A stretch of 64,000 nucleotides of DNA from an uncultured Reyranella sp. (GTDB lineage: Bacteria > Pseudomonadota > Alphaproteobacteria > Reyranellales > Reyranellaceae): NCBI RefSeq assembly GCF_945957355.1, contig NZ_CAMFKM010000019.1, forward strand, positions 1 to 64,000. The letters are read 5' to 3'. Both the position numbers and the translations under genes were made by a program. Under the pieces are notes generated by a model. That model was given only the letters and a program-made list of their open reading frames with translations. It was not told where the DNA came from and searched no databases. Below are positions 44,507-60,840 of this stretch, one piece after another. Every line of letters starts with the position of its first letter. The first letter of the stretch is position 1.

Positions 44507-45799
44507 ATGACCGCCAAGAGGGCGACAAGCCGCCGTGCCGGCAAAGAAACCGGCGCGGTCACCGCGACGGAGGCCAGGTGGCCAGCCGACGCGGTCGAAC
44601 GCCGGCCGGTGGCGACACTGGTGCCGTTTGCGCGGAACGCCAGGACTCATTCCGACGAGCAGGTCGCCCAGATCGCGGCGTCGATCCGGGAATGGGGGTG
44701 GACGGTACCGGTCCTGATCGACGAGGCGGGCACTATCATCGCCGGCCATGGCCGGGTGCTGGCGGCCCAGCGGTTGGGCTTCACCGAGATCCCGGTGATG
44801 GTTGCGGCTGGGTGGTCTGAGACCAAGCGCCGGGCGTATGTCATCGCCGACAACAAGCTGGCGCTGAATGCCGGTTGGGACGAGGAGTTGCTGCGGCTCG
44901 AACTGGGTGAGCTGAAGGGTCTGGGCGTCGACCTCGGTTTGACCGGCTTCGGCGAACTCGAGCTGGAGAAGTTGCTGCTCGGCACCGACGACGACGACGG
45001 CGACCCGGACGAGGCGCCAGCGCCGCCGGCCGAGCCAATCAGCCGTCCGGGCGATCTCTGGATCTGCGGTGAGCACCGAGTGCTGTGCGGCGATGCGACG
45101 GTCCGTGCCGATGTCGAGAAGCTGCTGGACGGCGAACTGGCCGACATGGCCTTCACCGATCCGCCCTACAACGTGAACTACGCCAACTCGGCCAAGGACA
45201 AGCTGCGTGGCAAGAACCGGGCGATCCTGAATGACGCCTTGGGCTCGGAGTTCGGGACGTTCCTCCAGGCCGCAAGCGCCAACATGCTCGCCGTTACCAA
45301 GGGGGCGATCTACATCTGCATGTCGTCGTCAGAGCTGGACACGCTGCAAAAGGCATTCCGCGAGGCCGGCGGCAAGTGGTCGACCTTCGTGATCTGGGCA
45401 AAGAACACGTTCACCCTCGGCCGCGCCGACTACCAGCGGCAATACGAGCCGATCCTGTACGGCTGGAAGCACGGCGCCGACCACTACTGGTGCGGTGCGC
45501 GCGATCAGGGCGACGTCTGGTTCTTCGACAAGCCGGTGAAGAACGACCTGCATCCGACGATGAAGCCCGTGGCGCTGGTTGAGCGTGCCATCAGGAACTC
45601 ATCGAAGAGCCGGGACATTGTGCTCGACCCGTTCGGCGGGTCAGGCACGACGATGATTGCGGCGGAGCGCACGAGCAGGCGGGCACGGTTGCTGGAACTC
45701 GATCCGAGGTACGTCGATGTGATCGTGCACCGGTGGCAAGGGACGACTGGTGGTCGTGCCCGTCACGCCCTGACGGGTGACCAATTTCCAATGACTTAA
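44507..45799 (+). CDS. ParB-domain DNA methyltransferase
   Basis: A 430-residue protein. The N-terminal ParB/sulfiredoxin-like domain (ARNARTHSDEQVAQIAASIR, GHGRVLAAQRLG; about residues 35-110) is joined to a beta-class DNA methyltransferase with DPPY motif AFTDPPYNVNYAN (about residue 215) followed by FGGSGTTMIAAE near the C terminus. This order marks N6-adenine or N4-cytosine methylation. Such phage proteins can protect phage DNA from host restriction. An acidic linker (TDDDDGDPDE) joins the domains. It ends against the convergent antitoxin gene, overlapping by 4 bp. Confidence 0.92.
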   Translation: MTAKRATSRRAGKETGAVTATEARWPADAVERRPVATLVPFARNARTHSDEQVAQIAASIREWGWTVPVLIDEAGTIIAGHGRVLAAQRLGFTEIPVMVAAGWSETKRRAYVIADNKLALNAGWDEELLRLELGELKGLGVDLGLTGFGELELEKLLLGTDDDDGDPDEAPAPPAEPISRPGDLWICGEHRVLCGDATVRADVEKLLDGELADMAFTDPPYNVNYANSAKDKLRGKNRAILNDALGSEFGTFLQAASANMLAVTKGAIYICMSSSELDTLQKAFREAGGKWSTFVIWAKNTFTLGRADYQRQYEPILYGWKHGADHYWCGARDQGDVWFFDKPVKNDLHPTMKPVALVERAIRNSSKSRDIVLDPFGGSGTTMIAAERTSRRARLLELDPRYVDVIVHRWQGTTGGRARHALTGDQFPMT

Positions 45800-46125
45800 G
45801 CAGCCTTCCGCTTGCGTTCCACGGTCTTCCTGGCCCGCCTAGCTGGTGGTTGGACGGCAAGGGAGAAGCCAAGCGACCGGATGACGCCCAGCAGCGTCGT
45901 CAGCTTGGGATCGCCGGTCGGGCTCAAGGTCTTGTAAAGAGCCTCGCGCGTTACGCCCGCGCCCCGGGCGACCTCCGCCATACCCCGCGCTCTTGCGATG
46001 ACGCCAAGTGCATTGGCGATGTATCCGGCGTCGCCCGACTCCAGAGCGTCAGTCAAGAGTTCGGCCTGAGCCTCGGCGGAGTCAATGTAGCGTGCCGCAT
46101 CGAAGGGAACCGTCTTCGTAGCCAT
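45796..46125 (-). CDS. HigA-like antitoxin of a toxin-antitoxin pair
   Basis: A 109-residue protein starting MATKTVPFDAARYIDSAEAQ with a strong GGAGG Shine-Dalgarno. The HTH region GVIARARGMAEVARGAGVTR followed by EALYKTLSPTGDPKL is the XRE-type pattern of addiction-module antidotes, which neutralise RelE/ParE-type toxins and bind the promoter. The C terminus is basic. It lies 2 bp downstream of the toxin gene, the toxin-first order. Confidence 0.88.
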   Translation of the reverse strand: MATKTVPFDAARYIDSAEAQAELLTDALESGDAGYIANALGVIARARGMAEVARGAGVTREALYKTLSPTGDPKLTTLLGVIRSLGFSLAVQPPARRARKTVERKRKAA

Positions 46126-46127
46126 CT

Positions 46128-46424
46128 TCAATCCTCCAGGTCGGCCGCTAGGGCTCTTGCCTTCCCGATGTCGCGGGCTTGCGTACGCTTGTCGCCGCCG
46201 CACAAGAGAACAATCAGGATCTTGCCTCGTTGCACGAAGTACACGCGATAGCCGGGCCCGTAGTCGACTCGCAACTCGGAGATACCTTCACCGACTGGCT
46301 TGACGTCTCCGAAAAGACCCGACTGCAATCGCACGATGCGCTGCGCAATGCGGGCAGCCGCACGCTGGTCGGCGAGCCCCTCCAGCCAACGGCTGAACAC
46401 AACAGTCTGCCGTACTTCAAGCAC
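46128..46424 (-). CDS. RelE/ParE-family (Gp49/HigB-like) toxin
   Basis: A 98-residue toxin-like protein. The pattern VRQTVVFSRWLEGLADQRAA to GYRVYFVQRGKILIVLLCGG, then DKRTQARDIGKARALA is the addiction-module killer family, predicted mRNA interferases. The start in frame is GTG at 46424, which directly borders the palindrome at 46426-46443. It is first in the operon and the antitoxin follows after 2 bp. Confidence 0.88.
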   Translation of the reverse strand: MLEVRQTVVFSRWLEGLADQRAAARIAQRIVRLQSGLFGDVKPVGEGISELRVDYGPGYRVYFVQRGKILIVLLCGGDKRTQARDIGKARALAADLED

Positions 46425-50749: not shown

Positions 50750-52117
50750 ATGCACGAACACAATCGCCCCGTCGGGCGCACGCACGCGCTCGAGCGCAAG
50801 GAAGCCAGCGACCTCCCGGCCGTGCTGGCCGAGGTCAAGAAGATCGTGACGCCGCTGATGACGGGCTTCGAGGAGTACAAGAAGACCAACGACCAGCGGC
50901 TCCGCGAGATCGAGACCACGGGCAAGGCCGATCCGCTGACGGAGGAGAAGCTCGCCCGGATCGAGGCGACGCTCGCGGGCTTCGAGACGGTGAACCAGAA
51001 GCTGGTCAATGCCGAGGCGATCGAGGCCAAGCGTGCCGAACGCGAGAAGCAGATGCAGGAGCAGCTCGACCGGCTGCAACTGAAGGTCCAGCGACCCGGT
51101 CTCGGCTCCGAGGAAGCCCGCGTCGAACGCAAGACCTACTTCAACGACTGGGCGCGCGGGGTGATCGGCGCCTACACGACAGGCGTGCCGAACCTGCCGG
51201 AGGCCCAAGCCAAGGCGATCGCCCGGGCGACGGCGGAGTTCAAGTCGCTGTCGGTCAGCAACGACACGACCGGCGGCTACCTGGCGCCGGCGGAATATGT
51301 GGCCGACATCATCAAGGGCATTACCCTGGTGAGCCCGGTTCGTTCGCTGGTCTCGGTGAAGCCCACGGCGAACAAGTCCCGGATGCAGCCCAGGCGGACC
51401 GGTCAGTTCGCCGCCCAGTGGGTAGCCGAGCAGGGGACCCGGTCCGAGACCACGGGGCTGGCCTACGGCATGGTCGAGATCCCGACGCACGAGATGTTCG
51501 CCCTGATCGACATCAGCCACCAGAACCTGGAGGACACGGCGTTCGATCTGGAGGCCGAGATCCGCGGCGAGGCCGAGGAGCAGTTCGCCGTGGCAGAAGG
51601 GGCGGCCGTGGTCGGCGGCAATGCCGTGGGCAAGCCCGAGGGCTGGCTGGTCAATACCGACATTGCGTCCAACAACTCGGGCACGGCAGCCACGATCGCG
51701 GACGCGAACGGCCAGGCTGACGGGCTGCTCACCCTAAAATACGCGCTGAAGAGCGGCTATGCACGCAACGCCAAGTGGGCCCTGAACCGGACGACCATGG
51801 GGTCGGTGCGCAAGCTGAAGGACGCCAACAGGCAGTACATCTGGATGCCGGGCCTGGCGCAGGGCCAACCCAACACCATCGATGGCGACCCGTATGTCGA
51901 GGTGCCGGACATGCCGAACGAGGGGGCCAATACTTTCCCGATCGTCTACGGCGACTTCGCCCGCGCCTATACGCTGGTCGACCGCATCGCCATGTCGATG
52001 CTGCGGGATCCCTACACCCAGGCGACGAGCGGCAACATCCGCTTCCTGTTCTATCGCCGCATCGGCGGACAGATCGTGCTGGCCGAGGCGATCCGCAAGC
52101 TGAAGTGCTCGACCTGA
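50750..52117 (+). CDS. Major capsid protein, HK97 fold
   Basis: Main head protein, 455 residues. The N-terminal ~110 residues are charged and coiled coil (EEKLARIEATLAGFETVNQK and KRAEREKQMQEQLDRLQLKV), the delta domain expected to be removed by the protease. The mature domain follows (TTGGYLAPAEYVADIIKGIT, QWVAEQGTRSE, FSHQNLED-like ISHQNLEDTAFDLEAEI, GKPEGWL). A GAGGACAAC element precedes the ATG. GC-rich inverted repeats follow the gene. Confidence 0.95.
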   Translation: MHEHNRPVGRTHALERKEASDLPAVLAEVKKIVTPLMTGFEEYKKTNDQRLREIETTGKADPLTEEKLARIEATLAGFETVNQKLVNAEAIEAKRAEREKQMQEQLDRLQLKVQRPGLGSEEARVERKTYFNDWARGVIGAYTTGVPNLPEAQAKAIARATAEFKSLSVSNDTTGGYLAPAEYVADIIKGITLVSPVRSLVSVKPTANKSRMQPRRTGQFAAQWVAEQGTRSETTGLAYGMVEIPTHEMFALIDISHQNLEDTAFDLEAEIRGEAEEQFAVAEGAAVVGGNAVGKPEGWLVNTDIASNNSGTAATIADANGQADGLLTLKYALKSGYARNAKWALNRTTMGSVRKLKDANRQYIWMPGLAQGQPNTIDGDPYVEVPDMPNEGANTFPIVYGDFARAYTLVDRIAMSMLRDPYTQATSGNIRFLFYRRIGGQIVLAEAIRKLKCST

Positions 52118-55060: not shown

Positions 55061-55087
55061 GTTGTCTGGAATTTGGGAGAAGGCCTC

Positions 55088-56017
55088 TTGGACAGCGCCA
55101 ACAAGCAGACCGCCGTCATCACCGAAGCGACCGTCGGCACCACGCCCGCAACGCCGGCCTTTCTGCTCACCCGCGACATCCGCGTCAGCGGCGCGCCGCA
55201 GCGTCCCAATACCCGCTCGCCCGAGCGGCGTCCCGACCGCCAGGCGGCCTCGATGGTGCAGGGTGTGGCGACCTACCCCAAGCAGATCGAGATGCCCTGG
55301 GTCCGGGACGCAGCCAGCGACGTGCTGTGGGCCTCGCTCTTCTGCAGCCCCTGGGTGTCCAATGTCCTCAAAGTCGGCTCGGTGCGAAGCGGCACGACGT
55401 TCACCCTGGAAGAGAAGTACGAGGGCGGCGCCACCGACCCCTATCGCCGCCTGACCGGCTGCATGGTCGACAACGTCTCGATCGCCTTCCAGAACGGCAA
55501 CCCGGGCCAGATCACCTTCTCTCTGCTGGCCCTGGGCGAGACCACGGCGACGACGGCGATCGCATCATCGACCTATGCGGCGCCGACGCCGGCCTACGAT
55601 CCCTCGACGCCGGCCGACATCGTGGTCAACAGCCTGTTCGGCCTTGCCTCGCCGAAGGTCCGCTCGCTGCAACTGCAGATCTCGAACAACCTGCAGCAGC
55701 AGTACGCCTTCGGTTCGGCCGATCCCTTTGCGATCGGCCTGGGCGAGTTCAACGTGCAGGGCGTGGTCGAGGTCTACTTCAACGCCCTTGCCGACTACTC
55801 GGCCTTCGTCGTCAAGCAGACCGGCCAGACCTTCGACATCACGATCGGCGCCACGATGAACTTCAAGGACCGGCTCGTGCTGGGCAATTGCGACGTCTTC
55901 AACCCGAACGTCGACGATCCCGGCCAGACGGGTGTTCACGCGGTGACCCTGAACTTCCTCGGCAAGTACTACGCCACCGACGCCTCGGCGATGAAGCTCA
56001 CCCGCAACGTGCCGTAA
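55088..56017 (+). CDS. Major tail tube protein
   Basis: A 309-residue protein from a TTG start at 55088, chosen because GGAGAAGG stands just upstream; the ORF-track start at 55073 is also TTG. The beta-rich sequence (ALLTRDIRVSG-like FLLTRDIRVSG, TTFTLEEKYEGG, IAFQNGNPGQITFSLLALGE, QTFDITIGATMNF) fits the tail-tube fold of siphophages. It lies between the terminator and tail-chaperone genes, as expected. Confidence 0.85.
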   Translation: MDSANKQTAVITEATVGTTPATPAFLLTRDIRVSGAPQRPNTRSPERRPDRQAASMVQGVATYPKQIEMPWVRDAASDVLWASLFCSPWVSNVLKVGSVRSGTTFTLEEKYEGGATDPYRRLTGCMVDNVSIAFQNGNPGQITFSLLALGETTATTAIASSTYAAPTPAYDPSTPADIVVNSLFGLASPKVRSLQLQISNNLQQQYAFGSADPFAIGLGEFNVQGVVEVYFNALADYSAFVVKQTGQTFDITIGATMNFKDRLVLGNCDVFNPNVDDPGQTGVHAVTLNFLGKYYATDASAMKLTRNVP

Positions 56018-56037: not shown

Positions 56038-56199
56038 ATGGAAACAACCGTCCTCATTCTCCAGACCTTCCACCGCTTCGTGTCCGAAGGCGAGGGCAGG
56101 CCCGAGCGCAAGGAGCGCTTTGCCCAGGGCCAGACGGTCAAGGTGTCCGAGGAGGATGCCGCCGACTGGATCGCGAAGGGACTCGCGCGAGAAGCATGA
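56038..56199 (+). CDS. Small phage tail-region protein
   Basis: A 53-residue protein, METTVLILQTFHRFVSEGEG to ADWIAKGLAREA, from the ATG at 56038. It is buried in a longer ORF of the track. The QGQTVKVSEEDAADWIAKGL end resembles small phage proteins found near the capsid and tail-tube genes. Function unknown. Confidence 0.65.
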   Translation: METTVLILQTFHRFVSEGEGRPERKERFAQGQTVKVSEEDAADWIAKGLAREA

Positions 56200-56248: not shown

Positions 56249-56677
56249 ATGAGCCAGTTCAAGTTCGGCAATATCGACAAGCTGAAGCGTAATCGCGAGA
56301 TCGAAGGGGTAGCAGGGACCGAGATCGGCCTGCCCGGCGGCATCTCGCTGATCGCGCTCTGCGCCTCGGATGCCAATCCGGCCTGGCGGCGCGGCGGCGA
56401 GGATTTTCTGGCCGAGCTGAAGCGGCTGAGCCGCGCCCATGCCTCGGACGAACGCGTAAAGCGCTTCCTGGCCGAGCAGCTCGCCCGCATGCTGGTCAAG
56501 GACTGGAGCGGCGTTGTCGACCAGGACGGCAACGCCATCCCATTCAGCACCGATGCGTGCATGGAATTCCTGATCGAGGCCGACGATGCGATCCCCGCCC
56601 TGCAGGCGGTCGTCTACGAGACGCAGAACTTCCGCGGCCAGCGCATCGAAGCAATCGTCGACCACGCAAAAAACTGA
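56249..56677 (+). CDS. Tail assembly chaperone, short form (gpG-like)
   Basis: A 142-residue protein, MSQFKFGNIDKLKRNREIEG to IVDHAKN, that stops at TGA 56675-56677. Its place between tail tube and tape measure, length and mostly helical sequence (FLAELKRLSRAHASDERVKR) are those of lambda gpG-like chaperones, which bind the tape-measure protein. A canonical -1 slippery heptamer covers the last codons, so a longer gpGT form is expected. Confidence 0.85.
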   Translation: MSQFKFGNIDKLKRNREIEGVAGTEIGLPGGISLIALCASDANPAWRRGGEDFLAELKRLSRAHASDERVKRFLAEQLARMLVKDWSGVVDQDGNAIPFSTDACMEFLIEADDAIPALQAVVYETQNFRGQRIEAIVDHAKN

Positions 56678-57063
56678 TCCGCTGGGACAGCATCAACGCT
56701 TCGGAGATCGCGGGCTGGAGCGATCGCGCCCGCGCGGGCGATGCCGAGTTCGTCGACCGCCTGCTGTCCCGGCCGCAACCCGACATCGAGACGGCAACTT
56801 ACTGGGAAGCCTTCCAGTATCTCTCCCGGGATCGGATCATGCTGTCTCTCTCCCTTGGGATGGCCGGCGGCCTGGTGCTGCCACAGCCGATCCCGCGTGA
56901 GTCGATCCGACGGTACGGCCGGACCCTTCGTCTCTCCGGCGAGGAACTGGCCGACTTCGTGGAGATCGTGGCTGCCATCGACGACTTCTGGGTCGTGACC
57001 GAGCAGCGTAAGCAGACGGATGCAGCGGTTCGCGCTGCCAGGGGCATGAGCAGGCAACGCTGA
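56249..57063 (+). CDS. Tail assembly chaperone, frameshifted long form (gpGT-like)
   Basis: Predicted product joined at the slippery site: 56249-56674 continues from 56674 in the -1 frame to the stop at 57063, about 271 residues. The second frame reads KKLIRWDSINASEIAGWSDR and continues as a helical, protein-like sequence (YWEAFQYLSRDRIMLSLSLG) with no ATG of its own near the join. It ends 3 bp before the tape-measure ATG. This matches the lambda G/GT rule that a few percent of ribosomes shift frame; the actual rate is unknown here. Confidence 0.82.
56668..56674 (+). promoter_or_regulatory. -1 ribosomal frameshift slippery site
   Basis: The heptamer A AAA AAC in the frame of the short form (codons GCA AAA AAC TGA) lets both tRNAs re-pair one base back as AAA AAA, then CTG. 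It lies exactly at the end of the short frame. A CGCGGGC/GCCCGCG stem (56709-56715 with 56728-56734, 12-base loop) follows 34 bases on, farther than the usual 5-9 bases. Confidence 0.85.
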
Positions 57064-57066
57064 TCC

Positions 57067-60000
57067 ATGGCTGAAGAAACCAGGATAATCCGGCTCGTAA
57101 TCGACAGCTCGAAGGCTGTCGAGGGCGGACGGGCGGCGCAGCGGGCGCTGGAGCAGATCGAGCGCAGCACGTCCTCGCTGGACGGCGCCATGGCGCGGAT
57201 GGAGCAGTCGCTGGGCCGCATCGGCGGTTACATGAAGGCGCAGCTTGCCCTCATGGCGGCCGAACTCGCCGCTCGCTTCGTGCAAATCGGCAAGGAAGCC
57301 TTCGACGCCGCGTCCGGCATGGGCGAGCTTGCGGACCAGCTCGGCGTCACCACGCGTGGTCTTCAGGCGCTGCAGTATTCAGCCGTCCAGAATGGCGTGA
57401 AGCTCGAGCAACTCGAGACTGGCGTCTCGAAGTTCAGCCAGAGAATCGGCGAAGCGGCGGGTGGCTCCAGGGAGATGATCGAGGCGCTCAACGGCATGGG
57501 CGTCAAGGTTCTCGACCTGAACGGCAAGCTGCGGCCGACTGAAACGCTGATGAGCGAGGTTGCCGCCAGCATTCTGGCCATCGACGATCCGGCGAAGCGG
57601 TCCGCCGCGTCCGTCGACTTCTTCGGCAAGGCCGGTACGAGGTTCCTGCCGGTGCTGCAGGACATGGCGAAGGGCCTCGACGCCATGGGCGCTGCTGCCG
57701 ATCGTGGTGGAGCGATGATCTCGGAGCGGGCGATCGTTCGCCTGGATCAGCTTGGCGATGCAGTGGCCCGATCCGGGCTGAAGATGAGGGCGACGTTTGC
57801 AAATACCTTCGTCGACCTGCTCGACGAGATCGAGGCGCGGCTCGCCAAAGTCAACATCGGCTTTTCGGAGGCCGACTGGGCGAAGGGTGCTGCCTACAAC
57901 AAGCAAAAGCTCGACGAGCTTGCGGCCTTTCTCGGTCGGGTGGAGGAAGAATCAGCGGTCAGCGTCGCGCGCTTCATCGCCGGGTTCGAGAAAGCGATCT
58001 CCACGATTCCCGAGTTGTTGGGCAAGGCCTTCGTTGACGGCATGAACAATGCGTTGGGCGCGCTCGAAAGCGGCCTCTCCAGGATCACGGGCACGCTGGA
58101 GCGCAACGCGCCCTGGCTGGGCGTGAAAAGCGGCGATATCAGTCTTGGCCGACTGTCTGGCGGCGGCGCTTCGCTCTCTGACCGAAATTCGCAGATCCAG
58201 GCGGCTGAAAACCAGGCCGAAGCCGGCATCCGGACCTACTATGCAGCCAACCGGGAGCAGCGCGACCGTGCCGCTCTGATTGCGCGGCAGGCGGGGTACG
58301 CCGGCGATGAAGATGCCGCCCGCCGCGGGACGCCTGGCGCCGTCGTTGCCGACGGCAAATCCAACCCCGCGGTCAAGGGTGCGGGCGATGCCGTGGCCGA
58401 TCGCATCGGCAAGGCGTTAGCTGATTCCGCGCGCGAACTGGAGCAGGCCCGCGCCTTCGCCGAAGTCGCCAACCAGGGCGCCGAAGCCTTGGCCAGGTTG
58501 GAGGCCCACTTCAAGGCGCTGAAGACGGCGCAGGACGTCTTCGGCAAGACCGCGAACGACAATGCCCGCGGCGTCGCCGACCTCACGGAGAAGCTCGAGG
58601 AGCAGGCGGTTGTCACCCTGAAGCTGAAGAACCTCGGTGATTTCCACGCCAGCACCGAGACGCTGCGCGACCAGAACGAATTGCTCGAGGCGGAGCTTCG
58701 GCTCGCCAACCAACTGCCCGAGGTCCGTGCCCGCGAGATCGCGGTCCTGAAGACCATGCAGGAGGTCAAGGCGAAGGGTCTGGAGGGCGAGATCGAGGCC
58801 ATCGAGCAGCGACGTCAGGCGATCGAGCAGAACGAGCGCCTGAAGAGCCAGGGCGAGGAGCTGAAGCGCGCCAACGAACTGTGGACCGAACCGCTCAAGA
58901 CGGCGCTCAACTCGATTCAGTCCACGGCGGCCGATGCATTCGCCACGATGCTCGAAAGTGGCAAGCTCTCGTTCCAGGCGCTGGGCGATGTGGTCAAGAA
59001 GACCGTGTTCCGCATGATCGCGGAGTTCGCTGCTCTGGCCACCATCCGGCCCCTGATGGGCGCGCTGATAGGGGGCCTCACCGGGATCGGGCTGGTGTCG
59101 CCGTCGATGGCCGCCAGCATGGGCTACGGAGCCGGCGGATCGACGGTGCCCTCGATCTCGATGCCGTCGCCTGGCGGCAACAGCCTCTCTCTGCCAGGAG
59201 GCAATGGACTCGGGGGCATGTTCGGCGGCAGTACCGGCTTCTTCAGCCAGCCCATCGCCTCGCTGTTCCCGTCATCGGCCCCGGCCGGCGGCTACGCCGA
59301 TGTCGGTGCCCTGCTGGCAAGTGGCAATACCGGTGCCACCGCCTCGGCGGCCGGGATCGGCGGTCTCGGCGGCATCAGCATTGGTTCCGCCCTTGGTGCC
59401 ATCGGCGGAATCGGCATGGGCGCCTACCAGCTGTTCAACTCGAAGAGCACGGGGCAGACCCTCGGCGGCATTGGTTCAATGATCGGTGCCGGCGTCTCGC
59501 TGATCCCGGGTGTGGGCCAGATCGCGGGCCCGCTGATCATGATGGCGTCGGCGCTGCTGCCGAGCCTGTTCGGCGAGTCCAACACTCGCACCCACAGCAG
59601 CACGAACGCCTCGCTGCACTACGGCGATGGCAACTGGTACACCACGGGCGGTGCCTGGGGGCCGAACGCCAATAGCAGCCAGTCGGAAAGTGCCCTCCGC
59701 GGTCTCACCGGCGGCATCGATCAGGTCTTCGGGCTGCTCGGCGGCGTCAAGGATGCGTCGAAGGTCTGGGGCCTCAACGCCTCGTCCTGGACCGCCCAGG
59801 GCAAGGACTGGAGCTACACCTCGAACGCCACGCACCTGGTCGATCCCTCGGGGAACCAAGAAGCCTGGCGGATGAACATGGACGACATGATGGACACCGG
59901 CGCTGCCCAGGTGGCGATCCGGTCGATCCTGTCCGGCGCCGTCGGCGAGATCTCCGCGACGATGAAGACCGCGCTGGAGCACATGCGCGCCGCGGCGATG

Positions 60001-60840
60001 GGCATCAAGGAGACCGCCGAAAGCATCGTCTTCGTCGACGAGGTCTATGAGCGCCTCGGCAAGGGTGCGCTGACCGTCAGGATGCAGTTCCGCGAGCTGG
60101 AGAAGCAGTTCGGCGACATGACCGACAAGGCGACCAGGCTCGGGCTTGCCCTGGCGCCGATCGAGGCCGAGCAGAAGAAGGCGACCGAACGCCTCGGCCA
60201 GGACTATGTCGACAACCTCATCGATCCGATCGCCGCCAGCCTGCGCGCCTGGGAGGACGAGAAGCAGTCGATCCTGGCGAACATCGACTACATCCGCCAG
60301 CACACCGACGTGATCGTCGACCAGGCCCGCATCGCCGAGGCCCTGCTGCGCCGCGAAGCCGCGCTGAAGGATCAGCTCTACGGCGGTGCGATCTCGCAGC
60401 TGGAGGACGCGATCCGGCGTCTCAGCCTGGGCGATCTCGCCAACCTCTCGCCCACCACCATGCTGACAGGCGTGCAGGCGGCCTATCAGGCCACCGTCGC
60501 GCAGGCCCGTTCGGGCGACAGCAGCGCCATCGCGCGCGTCGCGGCCGAAGGCACGAGCTTCGCGCAGGCCGCCCAGTCCTACTATGCGAGCGGTCCCGAC
60601 TATGAGGCGCTGAAGCAGCAGATCCTCGACGATCTGCTGACCCTCCAGTCGCAGATCGCCGGCGGCGGGAGCACGACGGGCTCGGCGTTGAACGACAACA
60701 ATGGTGCCACGCGAGCGGCCGTGGCCCAGGTGGCTGAGCTTCAGTCTGTCGTCTCCGAGCAGAGCCGTCAGATCGCAACGCTGATGGCAAAGCTCTCCGA
60801 GACCAACGACCTGCTGCTACGCCGCGCGGTGAACGGCTGA
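57067..60840 (+). CDS. Tail length tape-measure protein
   Basis: A 1257-residue protein, one of the largest in the window, which sets tail length and runs through the tail tube. The N-terminal part resembles the family start (IIRLVIDSSKAVEGGRAAQR), followed by helical and coiled-coil regions (SDRNSQIQAAENQAEAGI; ELEQARAFAEVANQGAEALA) and a Gly/Ser-rich hydrophobic middle (GGISIGSALGAIGGIGMGAY, LIMMASALLP) typical of membrane-interacting tape-measure segments. The C-terminal region is helical. It follows the chaperone GT stop by 3 bp. Its length suggests a tail of roughly 190 nm by the usual 1.5 angstrom per residue rule, an estimate only. Confidence 0.9.
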   Translation: MAEETRIIRLVIDSSKAVEGGRAAQRALEQIERSTSSLDGAMARMEQSLGRIGGYMKAQLALMAAELAARFVQIGKEAFDAASGMGELADQLGVTTRGLQALQYSAVQNGVKLEQLETGVSKFSQRIGEAAGGSREMIEALNGMGVKVLDLNGKLRPTETLMSEVAASILAIDDPAKRSAASVDFFGKAGTRFLPVLQDMAKGLDAMGAAADRGGAMISERAIVRLDQLGDAVARSGLKMRATFANTFVDLLDEIEARLAKVNIGFSEADWAKGAAYNKQKLDELAAFLGRVEEESAVSVARFIAGFEKAISTIPELLGKAFVDGMNNALGALESGLSRITGTLERNAPWLGVKSGDISLGRLSGGGASLSDRNSQIQAAENQAEAGIRTYYAANREQRDRAALIARQAGYAGDEDAARRGTPGAVVADGKSNPAVKGAGDAVADRIGKALADSARELEQARAFAEVANQGAEALARLEAHFKALKTAQDVFGKTANDNARGVADLTEKLEEQAVVTLKLKNLGDFHASTETLRDQNELLEAELRLANQLPEVRAREIAVLKTMQEVKAKGLEGEIEAIEQRRQAIEQNERLKSQGEELKRANELWTEPLKTALNSIQSTAADAFATMLESGKLSFQALGDVVKKTVFRMIAEFAALATIRPLMGALIGGLTGIGLVSPSMAASMGYGAGGSTVPSISMPSPGGNSLSLPGGNGLGGMFGGSTGFFSQPIASLFPSSAPAGGYADVGALLASGNTGATASAAGIGGLGGISIGSALGAIGGIGMGAYQLFNSKSTGQTLGGIGSMIGAGVSLIPGVGQIAGPLIMMASALLPSLFGESNTRTHSSTNASLHYGDGNWYTTGGAWGPNANSSQSESALRGLTGGIDQVFGLLGGVKDASKVWGLNASSWTAQGKDWSYTSNATHLVDPSGNQEAWRMNMDDMMDTGAAQVAIRSILSGAVGEISATMKTALEHMRAAAMGIKETAESIVFVDEVYERLGKGALTVRMQFRELEKQFGDMTDKATRLGLALAPIEAEQKKATERLGQDYVDNLIDPIAASLRAWEDEKQSILANIDYIRQHTDVIVDQARIAEALLRREAALKDQLYGGAISQLEDAIRRLSLGDLANLSPTTMLTGVQAAYQATVAQARSGDSSAIARVAAEGTSFAQAAQSYYASGPDYEALKQQILDDLLTLQSQIAGGGSTTGSALNDNNGATRAAVAQVAELQSVVSEQSRQIATLMAKLSETNDLLLRRAVNG

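Follow-up and report, generated by a model that had tools for sequence, protein, structure and literature searches.

Few programmed recoding events are as widespread as the frameshift in phage tail chaperone genes. The gpG/gpGT -1 frameshift of phage lambda is reviewed, together with its counterparts in other long-tailed dsDNA phages, in PMC5009743. In an HK97-related cluster, two tail chaperone genes gave measured rates of 6-7% (PMC3711429). For Acinetobacter phage Loki, the available text of PMC5313236 records the heptamer, and a search of that text found no stem at the chaperone site. Where a downstream stem accompanies such a heptamer, the usual spacing between the two is 5-8 nt (PMC4066793). 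Here we compare with these systems a prophage locus in a 64-kb stretch of DNA from an uncultured Reyranella sp. (64,000 nt, forward strand; hereafter the window). We consider it very likely that a programmed -1 frameshift at this locus yields two tail assembly chaperones from one gene, with the ribosome held by an 11-bp long-range stem.

The G/T junction and its slippery heptamer

Along with terminase, portal, prohead protease and capsid genes, the prophage in the window carries the gene order tail tube - G/T - tape measure, with one small ORF without a family match between the tail tube gene and G. The features referred to below are as follows.

55073-56017, + strand: tail tube gene (context, upstream); PF18906 Phage_tube_2, E 1.3e-30; phrog_290
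56039-56199: small ORF of 53 aa between the tail tube and chaperone genes; no family match in our searches
56249-56677, + strand: G, the short frame of the tail assembly chaperone gene (142 aa, stop TGA); phrog_313, E 1.9e-10; phrog_8233, E 4.2e-8
56668-56674, + strand: slippery heptamer A AAA AAC, from sequence; kept in 32/32 distinct core relatives and 85/85 XAJ2/Loki-like loci
56675-56677, + strand: TGA stop of G, abutting the heptamer, from sequence
56674-57063, + strand: T, the -1 frame part of the predicted fusion; 129 aa, beginning with the Leu codon that starts on the final base of the heptamer; open frame and homology
56675-56680, + strand: 6-nt spacer between heptamer and stem; no excess pairing at +1 to +6 in relatives
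56681-56691, + strand: stem, 5' arm, GCUGGGACAGC; overlaps the codons for R W D S in T
56692-56762, + strand: 71-nt loop between the arms; predicted fold branched, structure not conserved
56710-56733, + strand: local hairpin within the loop, the stem of the original prediction; not conserved
56763-56773, + strand: stem, 3' arm, GCUGUCCCGGC; overlaps the codons for L L S R P in T
57067-60840, + strand: tape measure gene (context, downstream); phrog_8462 tape measure, E 8.8e-24; PF10145

The junction reads GAC CAC GCA AAA AAC TGA, the heptamer forming the last two sense codons of G. The original prediction had placed a canonical -1 frameshift site here, with the short frame ending exactly at A AAA AAC and the -1 frame staying open and protein-like up to the tape measure, and the locus bears this out. 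First, the heptamer lies in the frame of the ORF at 56249-56677 with the TGA adjoining it. Second, the T frame runs open from 56674 to a stop at 57063, with the next ORF, that of the tape measure, beginning at 57067. Third, the profile of the tail assembly chaperone family phrog_8233 covers both frames in order (profile positions 4-132 in G and 162-252 in T), while T on its own matches the tail chaperonin family phrog_3817 (E 2.1e-13) and scores 26.3 bits, just under the cut-off of 27, against Pfam PF23812 (Phage_TAC_18). AAAAAAC occurs only twice in the 64-kb window, versus 1.2 expected from shuffles, so that chance does not account for a copy falling in frame precisely on the last two sense codons of G.

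Relatives were collected from viral contigs and genomes, giving a core set of 32 distinct relatives whose G identity ranges from 100% to about 32%. Loss of the heptamer in relatives had been named in advance as a result that would speak against the site; instead, every relative examined retains a slippery heptamer at the junction, the 32 core sequences dividing into 21 A_AAA_AAC, 4 G_GGA_AAC, 3 G_GGA_AAA and 4 G_GGG_GAA. This persistence of the slip property through changes of letters is predicted by selection for tandem tRNA slippage and counts against slippage on an A run in the transcript. On sequence grounds, the G/T junction is thus a programmed -1 frameshift site of the lambda G/GT type. 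G_GGG_GAA is not a strict X_XXY_YYZ heptamer and would re-pair perfectly only in the P site. It was found at L044:3417-3423, L049:3414-3420, L050:2380-2386 and L053:1080-1086, on separate branches of the tree; both its position and the accompanying stem match those of the canonical sites in close relatives.

The six consecutive A residues in the window would also suit a frame change that arises in transcription, through RNA polymerase slipping on the A run, and not in translation. Transcriptional slippage is inefficient on short runs, however, the G_GGA_AAC, G_GGA_AAA and G_GGG_GAA sites of relatives have no long single-base runs, and the fixed 6-nt spacing of the stem described below suits ribosomes, so that we regard polymerase slippage as highly unlikely. 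Alternatively, T could be an independently initiated gene to which the heptamer is incidental: the T frame of the window has a GTG 111 nt before the heptamer, and in several phage records T is annotated as a gene in its own right, starting further downstream. Yet 22 of the 33 core loci and 74 of the 78 distant ones have no upstream in-frame ATG, GTG or TTG, a count that excludes an independent start of T in most relatives. Moreover, homology among relatives begins exactly at the heptamer, and a separate T would leave a slippery heptamer universal among relatives without a reason. We therefore hold a separate T gene to be very improbable, and continue with T as the -1 extension of G.

A fusion of a ParB N-terminal domain with an N6/N4 DNA methylase (44507-45799) stands directly before the packaging genes, and a toxin-antitoxin-like module on the minus strand (45796-46424), consisting of a Gp49-like protein (PF05973) and an HI1420-type antidote (PF21716), runs opposite to the phage genes between methylase and terminase. 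The capsid protein (50750-52117) shares 63% identity with its counterpart in Rhizobium phage RHph_X2_25, the next best match being 33%, yet this phage gave no match in the G or T searches, which hints at module exchange.

The long-range stem downstream of the heptamer

The stimulating stem, if any, had originally been thought to lie unusually far downstream (34 bases). That hairpin (56710-56733, 34-35 nt past the heptamer) has a predicted energy of -14 kcal/mol, but among relatives only 57% of its cells are paired and its two-sided changes do not exceed the shuffle level. We rejected it as a stimulator, and this part of the original prediction was not upheld: the stem that is conserved has an ordinary 6-nt spacer, and what is distant in it is the 3' arm, not the start. 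This conserved stem was first seen on folding 123 nt from the heptamer in the window alone, as GCUGGGACAGC paired with GCUGUCCCGGC. Its 11 bp join 56681-56691 with 56763-56773 across a 71-nt loop, the 3' arm beginning 88 nt after the heptamer and the start lying within the 5-8 nt usual for stem-stimulated bacterial -1 frameshifting.

Because the single-sequence fold of the window was not significant (z -1.25) and gave weak evidence for the stem region too (z -2.5), comparison with relatives was needed. RNAalifold on 30 relatives returned exactly this helix as the sole consensus helix. In the same alignment the covariation score was 0.210 compared to 0.092 in shuffles, and two-sided cells in the stem numbered 22 compared to 6.3, with none of 500 shuffles as high. 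Shifting the partner by 1-3 columns lowered pairing from 91% to 25-59%. An Rfam search of the region (E up to 5) returned nothing but a chance match to a CRISPR repeat. A covariance model built on heptamer and stem matched the host genome once, at this site; the weak hits that it gave in 26 further genomes of the class were dismissed as chance, because the four that were opened have no frameshift heptamer there.

As the arms encode RWDS and LLSRP of T, conservation of the protein had to be excluded as the cause of the pairing. Synonymous codons were redrawn from each locus's own codon use with the proteins unchanged. The full stem is present in 26 of 30 loci, versus a mean of 0.14 after redraw (largest value 3), and a set of 17 representatives less than 85% identical forms 179 of its 187 pairs, versus 115.6 ± 5.8 on redraw. 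Third positions swap together: Asp GAC goes with Leu CTG and GAT with CTA, and among Arg codons CGC goes with CGG, CGG with CGC and CGA with CGT. On a tree constructed with the arm residues left out, two third-position pairs each switch type four times or more; a tree-based sign test stayed below significance, with too few independent pairs. Codon shuffles of the core family (20 representatives) confined the pairing excess to +7 to +18 after the heptamer (combined z 4.95), and in both the core and the XAJ2-like groups the excess was absent from the first six bases after the heptamer.

These results bear on a reading in which the frameshift is real and the stem has no function, its arms matching only through the conserved protein motifs. 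The arms do sit on conserved residues, and many phage frameshift sites have been described without a stimulator. Against this reading stand the redraw, which yields 0.14 stems per 30 loci where 26 are observed, and the joint swapping of third positions. Covariation beyond what the codons require establishes, at the level of sequence, that the 11-bp stem exists; it has been kept by evolution and probably sets the frequency of the slip.

L055 is without the stem, L021 and L043 do not share the conserved stem, and in L018 and L019 the best single fold favours other pairs, in one setting each. The relatives with a GGGAAAA heptamer (L021, L030, L043, L054 and L055) have lost or altered the conserved stem, and the G_GGA_AAA loci look as if this heptamer might need another stimulator or none.

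The stem in the distant XAJ2/Loki-like group

The same question can be put to the XAJ2/Loki/Titanvirus-like group (240 phage records; 77 further loci). The heptamer is canonical in 85 of 85 distant loci (69 AAAAAAC, 15 GGGAAAC and 1 GGGAAAT). Homology links the T proteins of the core family and the XAJ2 group (hhalign probability 98%, about 17% identity), and the LLSRP block of the former aligns with the NAPEL block of the latter. Codon shuffles of 58 unselected representatives revealed a pairing excess at about +8 to +19 after the heptamer (combined z 8.46), codon choice favouring a stem at a similar distance, formed with the homologous codons or with a nearer partner. Since this positional excess recurs in distant relatives that were not selected for it, it also argues against a functionless stem, which we judge to be unlikely; a functional stem remains the preferred reading.

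By predicted fold the group splits into 38 loci with a distant partner, typically the NAPEL codons, and 33 with a nearer one, typically the EQN codons. As the split was made by predicted fold, the paired percentages are circular, and the evidence consists of the covariation excess and the unselected positional scan. Covariation exceeded shuffles in both fold classes, aligned as small, more alike subsets that were chosen by fold; RNAalifold on the codon-aligned distant group, split by fold class, gave no structure. The long-range form also occurs in Xanthomonas phage XAJ2 and Shewanella phage S0112. Across L090-L166, the same 5' arm at +8 to +19 has its partner about 30-40 nt or more than 90 nt away, depending on the lineage, which as judged from predicted pairing is a switch of stem partner. 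The remote alphaproteobacterial chaperones (L062-L071) have slippery heptamers, but mostly local hairpins in place of the long-range stem.

There is, in our estimation, about an even chance that a stem between the post-slip codons and a conserved block of codons some 90-110 nt further on is an ancient frameshift stimulator common to this chaperone superfamily, its arms having changed fully in sequence at homologous positions and some lineages having moved to a nearer 3' partner.

Proposed mechanism and relation to known systems

In the mechanism that we propose, the majority of ribosomes would terminate at the TGA at 56675 and release G, while in a minority the tRNAs on AAA and AAC of A_AAA_AAC would shift back by one base, giving G-T (predicted fusion ...DHAKN-LIRWDS..., 142 + 129 aa). 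The stem 6 nt downstream would hold the ribosome on the heptamer, the loop between the arms being free to vary; on reaching the base of the stem, a ribosome would have the heptamer in its P and A sites. By analogy with lambda, G would bind the tape measure protein and G-T would recruit tail tube subunits, so that the ratio set by the slip would matter. The sequences show the frames, the heptamer with its conservation and the stem; the slipping, its rate, the raising of this rate by the stem and the roles of G and G-T are what we infer. With 71 nt between the two arms, a preceding ribosome on the loop, or folding of the loop, might modulate formation of the stem, although this is speculation.

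A covariation-backed stem at a fixed distance makes the control of the rate of chaperone frameshifting testable by standard reporters, and the stem-bearing groups include, besides prophages, a group with isolated phages of E. coli K-12 (Shy and Halfdan). Local folding can miss such stimulators, the partner arm beginning 88 nt past the heptamer. The locus also holds a warning to annotators, because annotations often overlook T or enter it as a gene of its own. In phage records L073, L074, L081, L087 and L088, T appears as a separate downstream gene or is unannotated, and the frameshift is missing despite the heptamer.

Like lambda gpG/gpGT, the locus has a first chaperone frame with a heptamer close to its end, a second frame at -1, a place between the tail tube and tape measure genes and two products predicted to be tail assembly chaperones. 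Unlike in lambda, the heptamer is A_AAA_AAC (G_GGA_AAG in lambda), the stop abuts it, and a covarying long-range stem follows, for which the lambda descriptions in the available text of PMC5009743 contain no counterpart that we found. In the literature searched, as far as its accessible text goes, and in Rfam we found no covarying long-range stem described for tail chaperone sites, and there may be an earlier mention. Within that text, then, the G/GT frameshift itself is of an already known kind, and the covarying long-range stem is a variant for which we found no description.

With Loki and the XAJ2/Titanvirus/Lokivirus-like phages (PMC5313236, in its available text) the locus shares a homologous T, AAAAAAC beside the stop and a stem at a similar distance. 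By contrast, G and T are very divergent from theirs, the arm sequences differ, and about half of that group use a nearer 3' arm. From E. coli dnaX and IS911 it differs in the genes concerned and in a Shine-Dalgarno-like stimulator upstream of the heptamer, which is absent in the window and found in only 3 of 33 core loci; a further difference is that only the closing stem is conserved here and the inner hairpins are not. It resembles both, on the available text of PMC5009743 and PMC4066793, in a stem that begins 5-8 nt past the heptamer, dnaX in a stem of about 11 bp, and IS911 in the branched interior that is predicted in the window.
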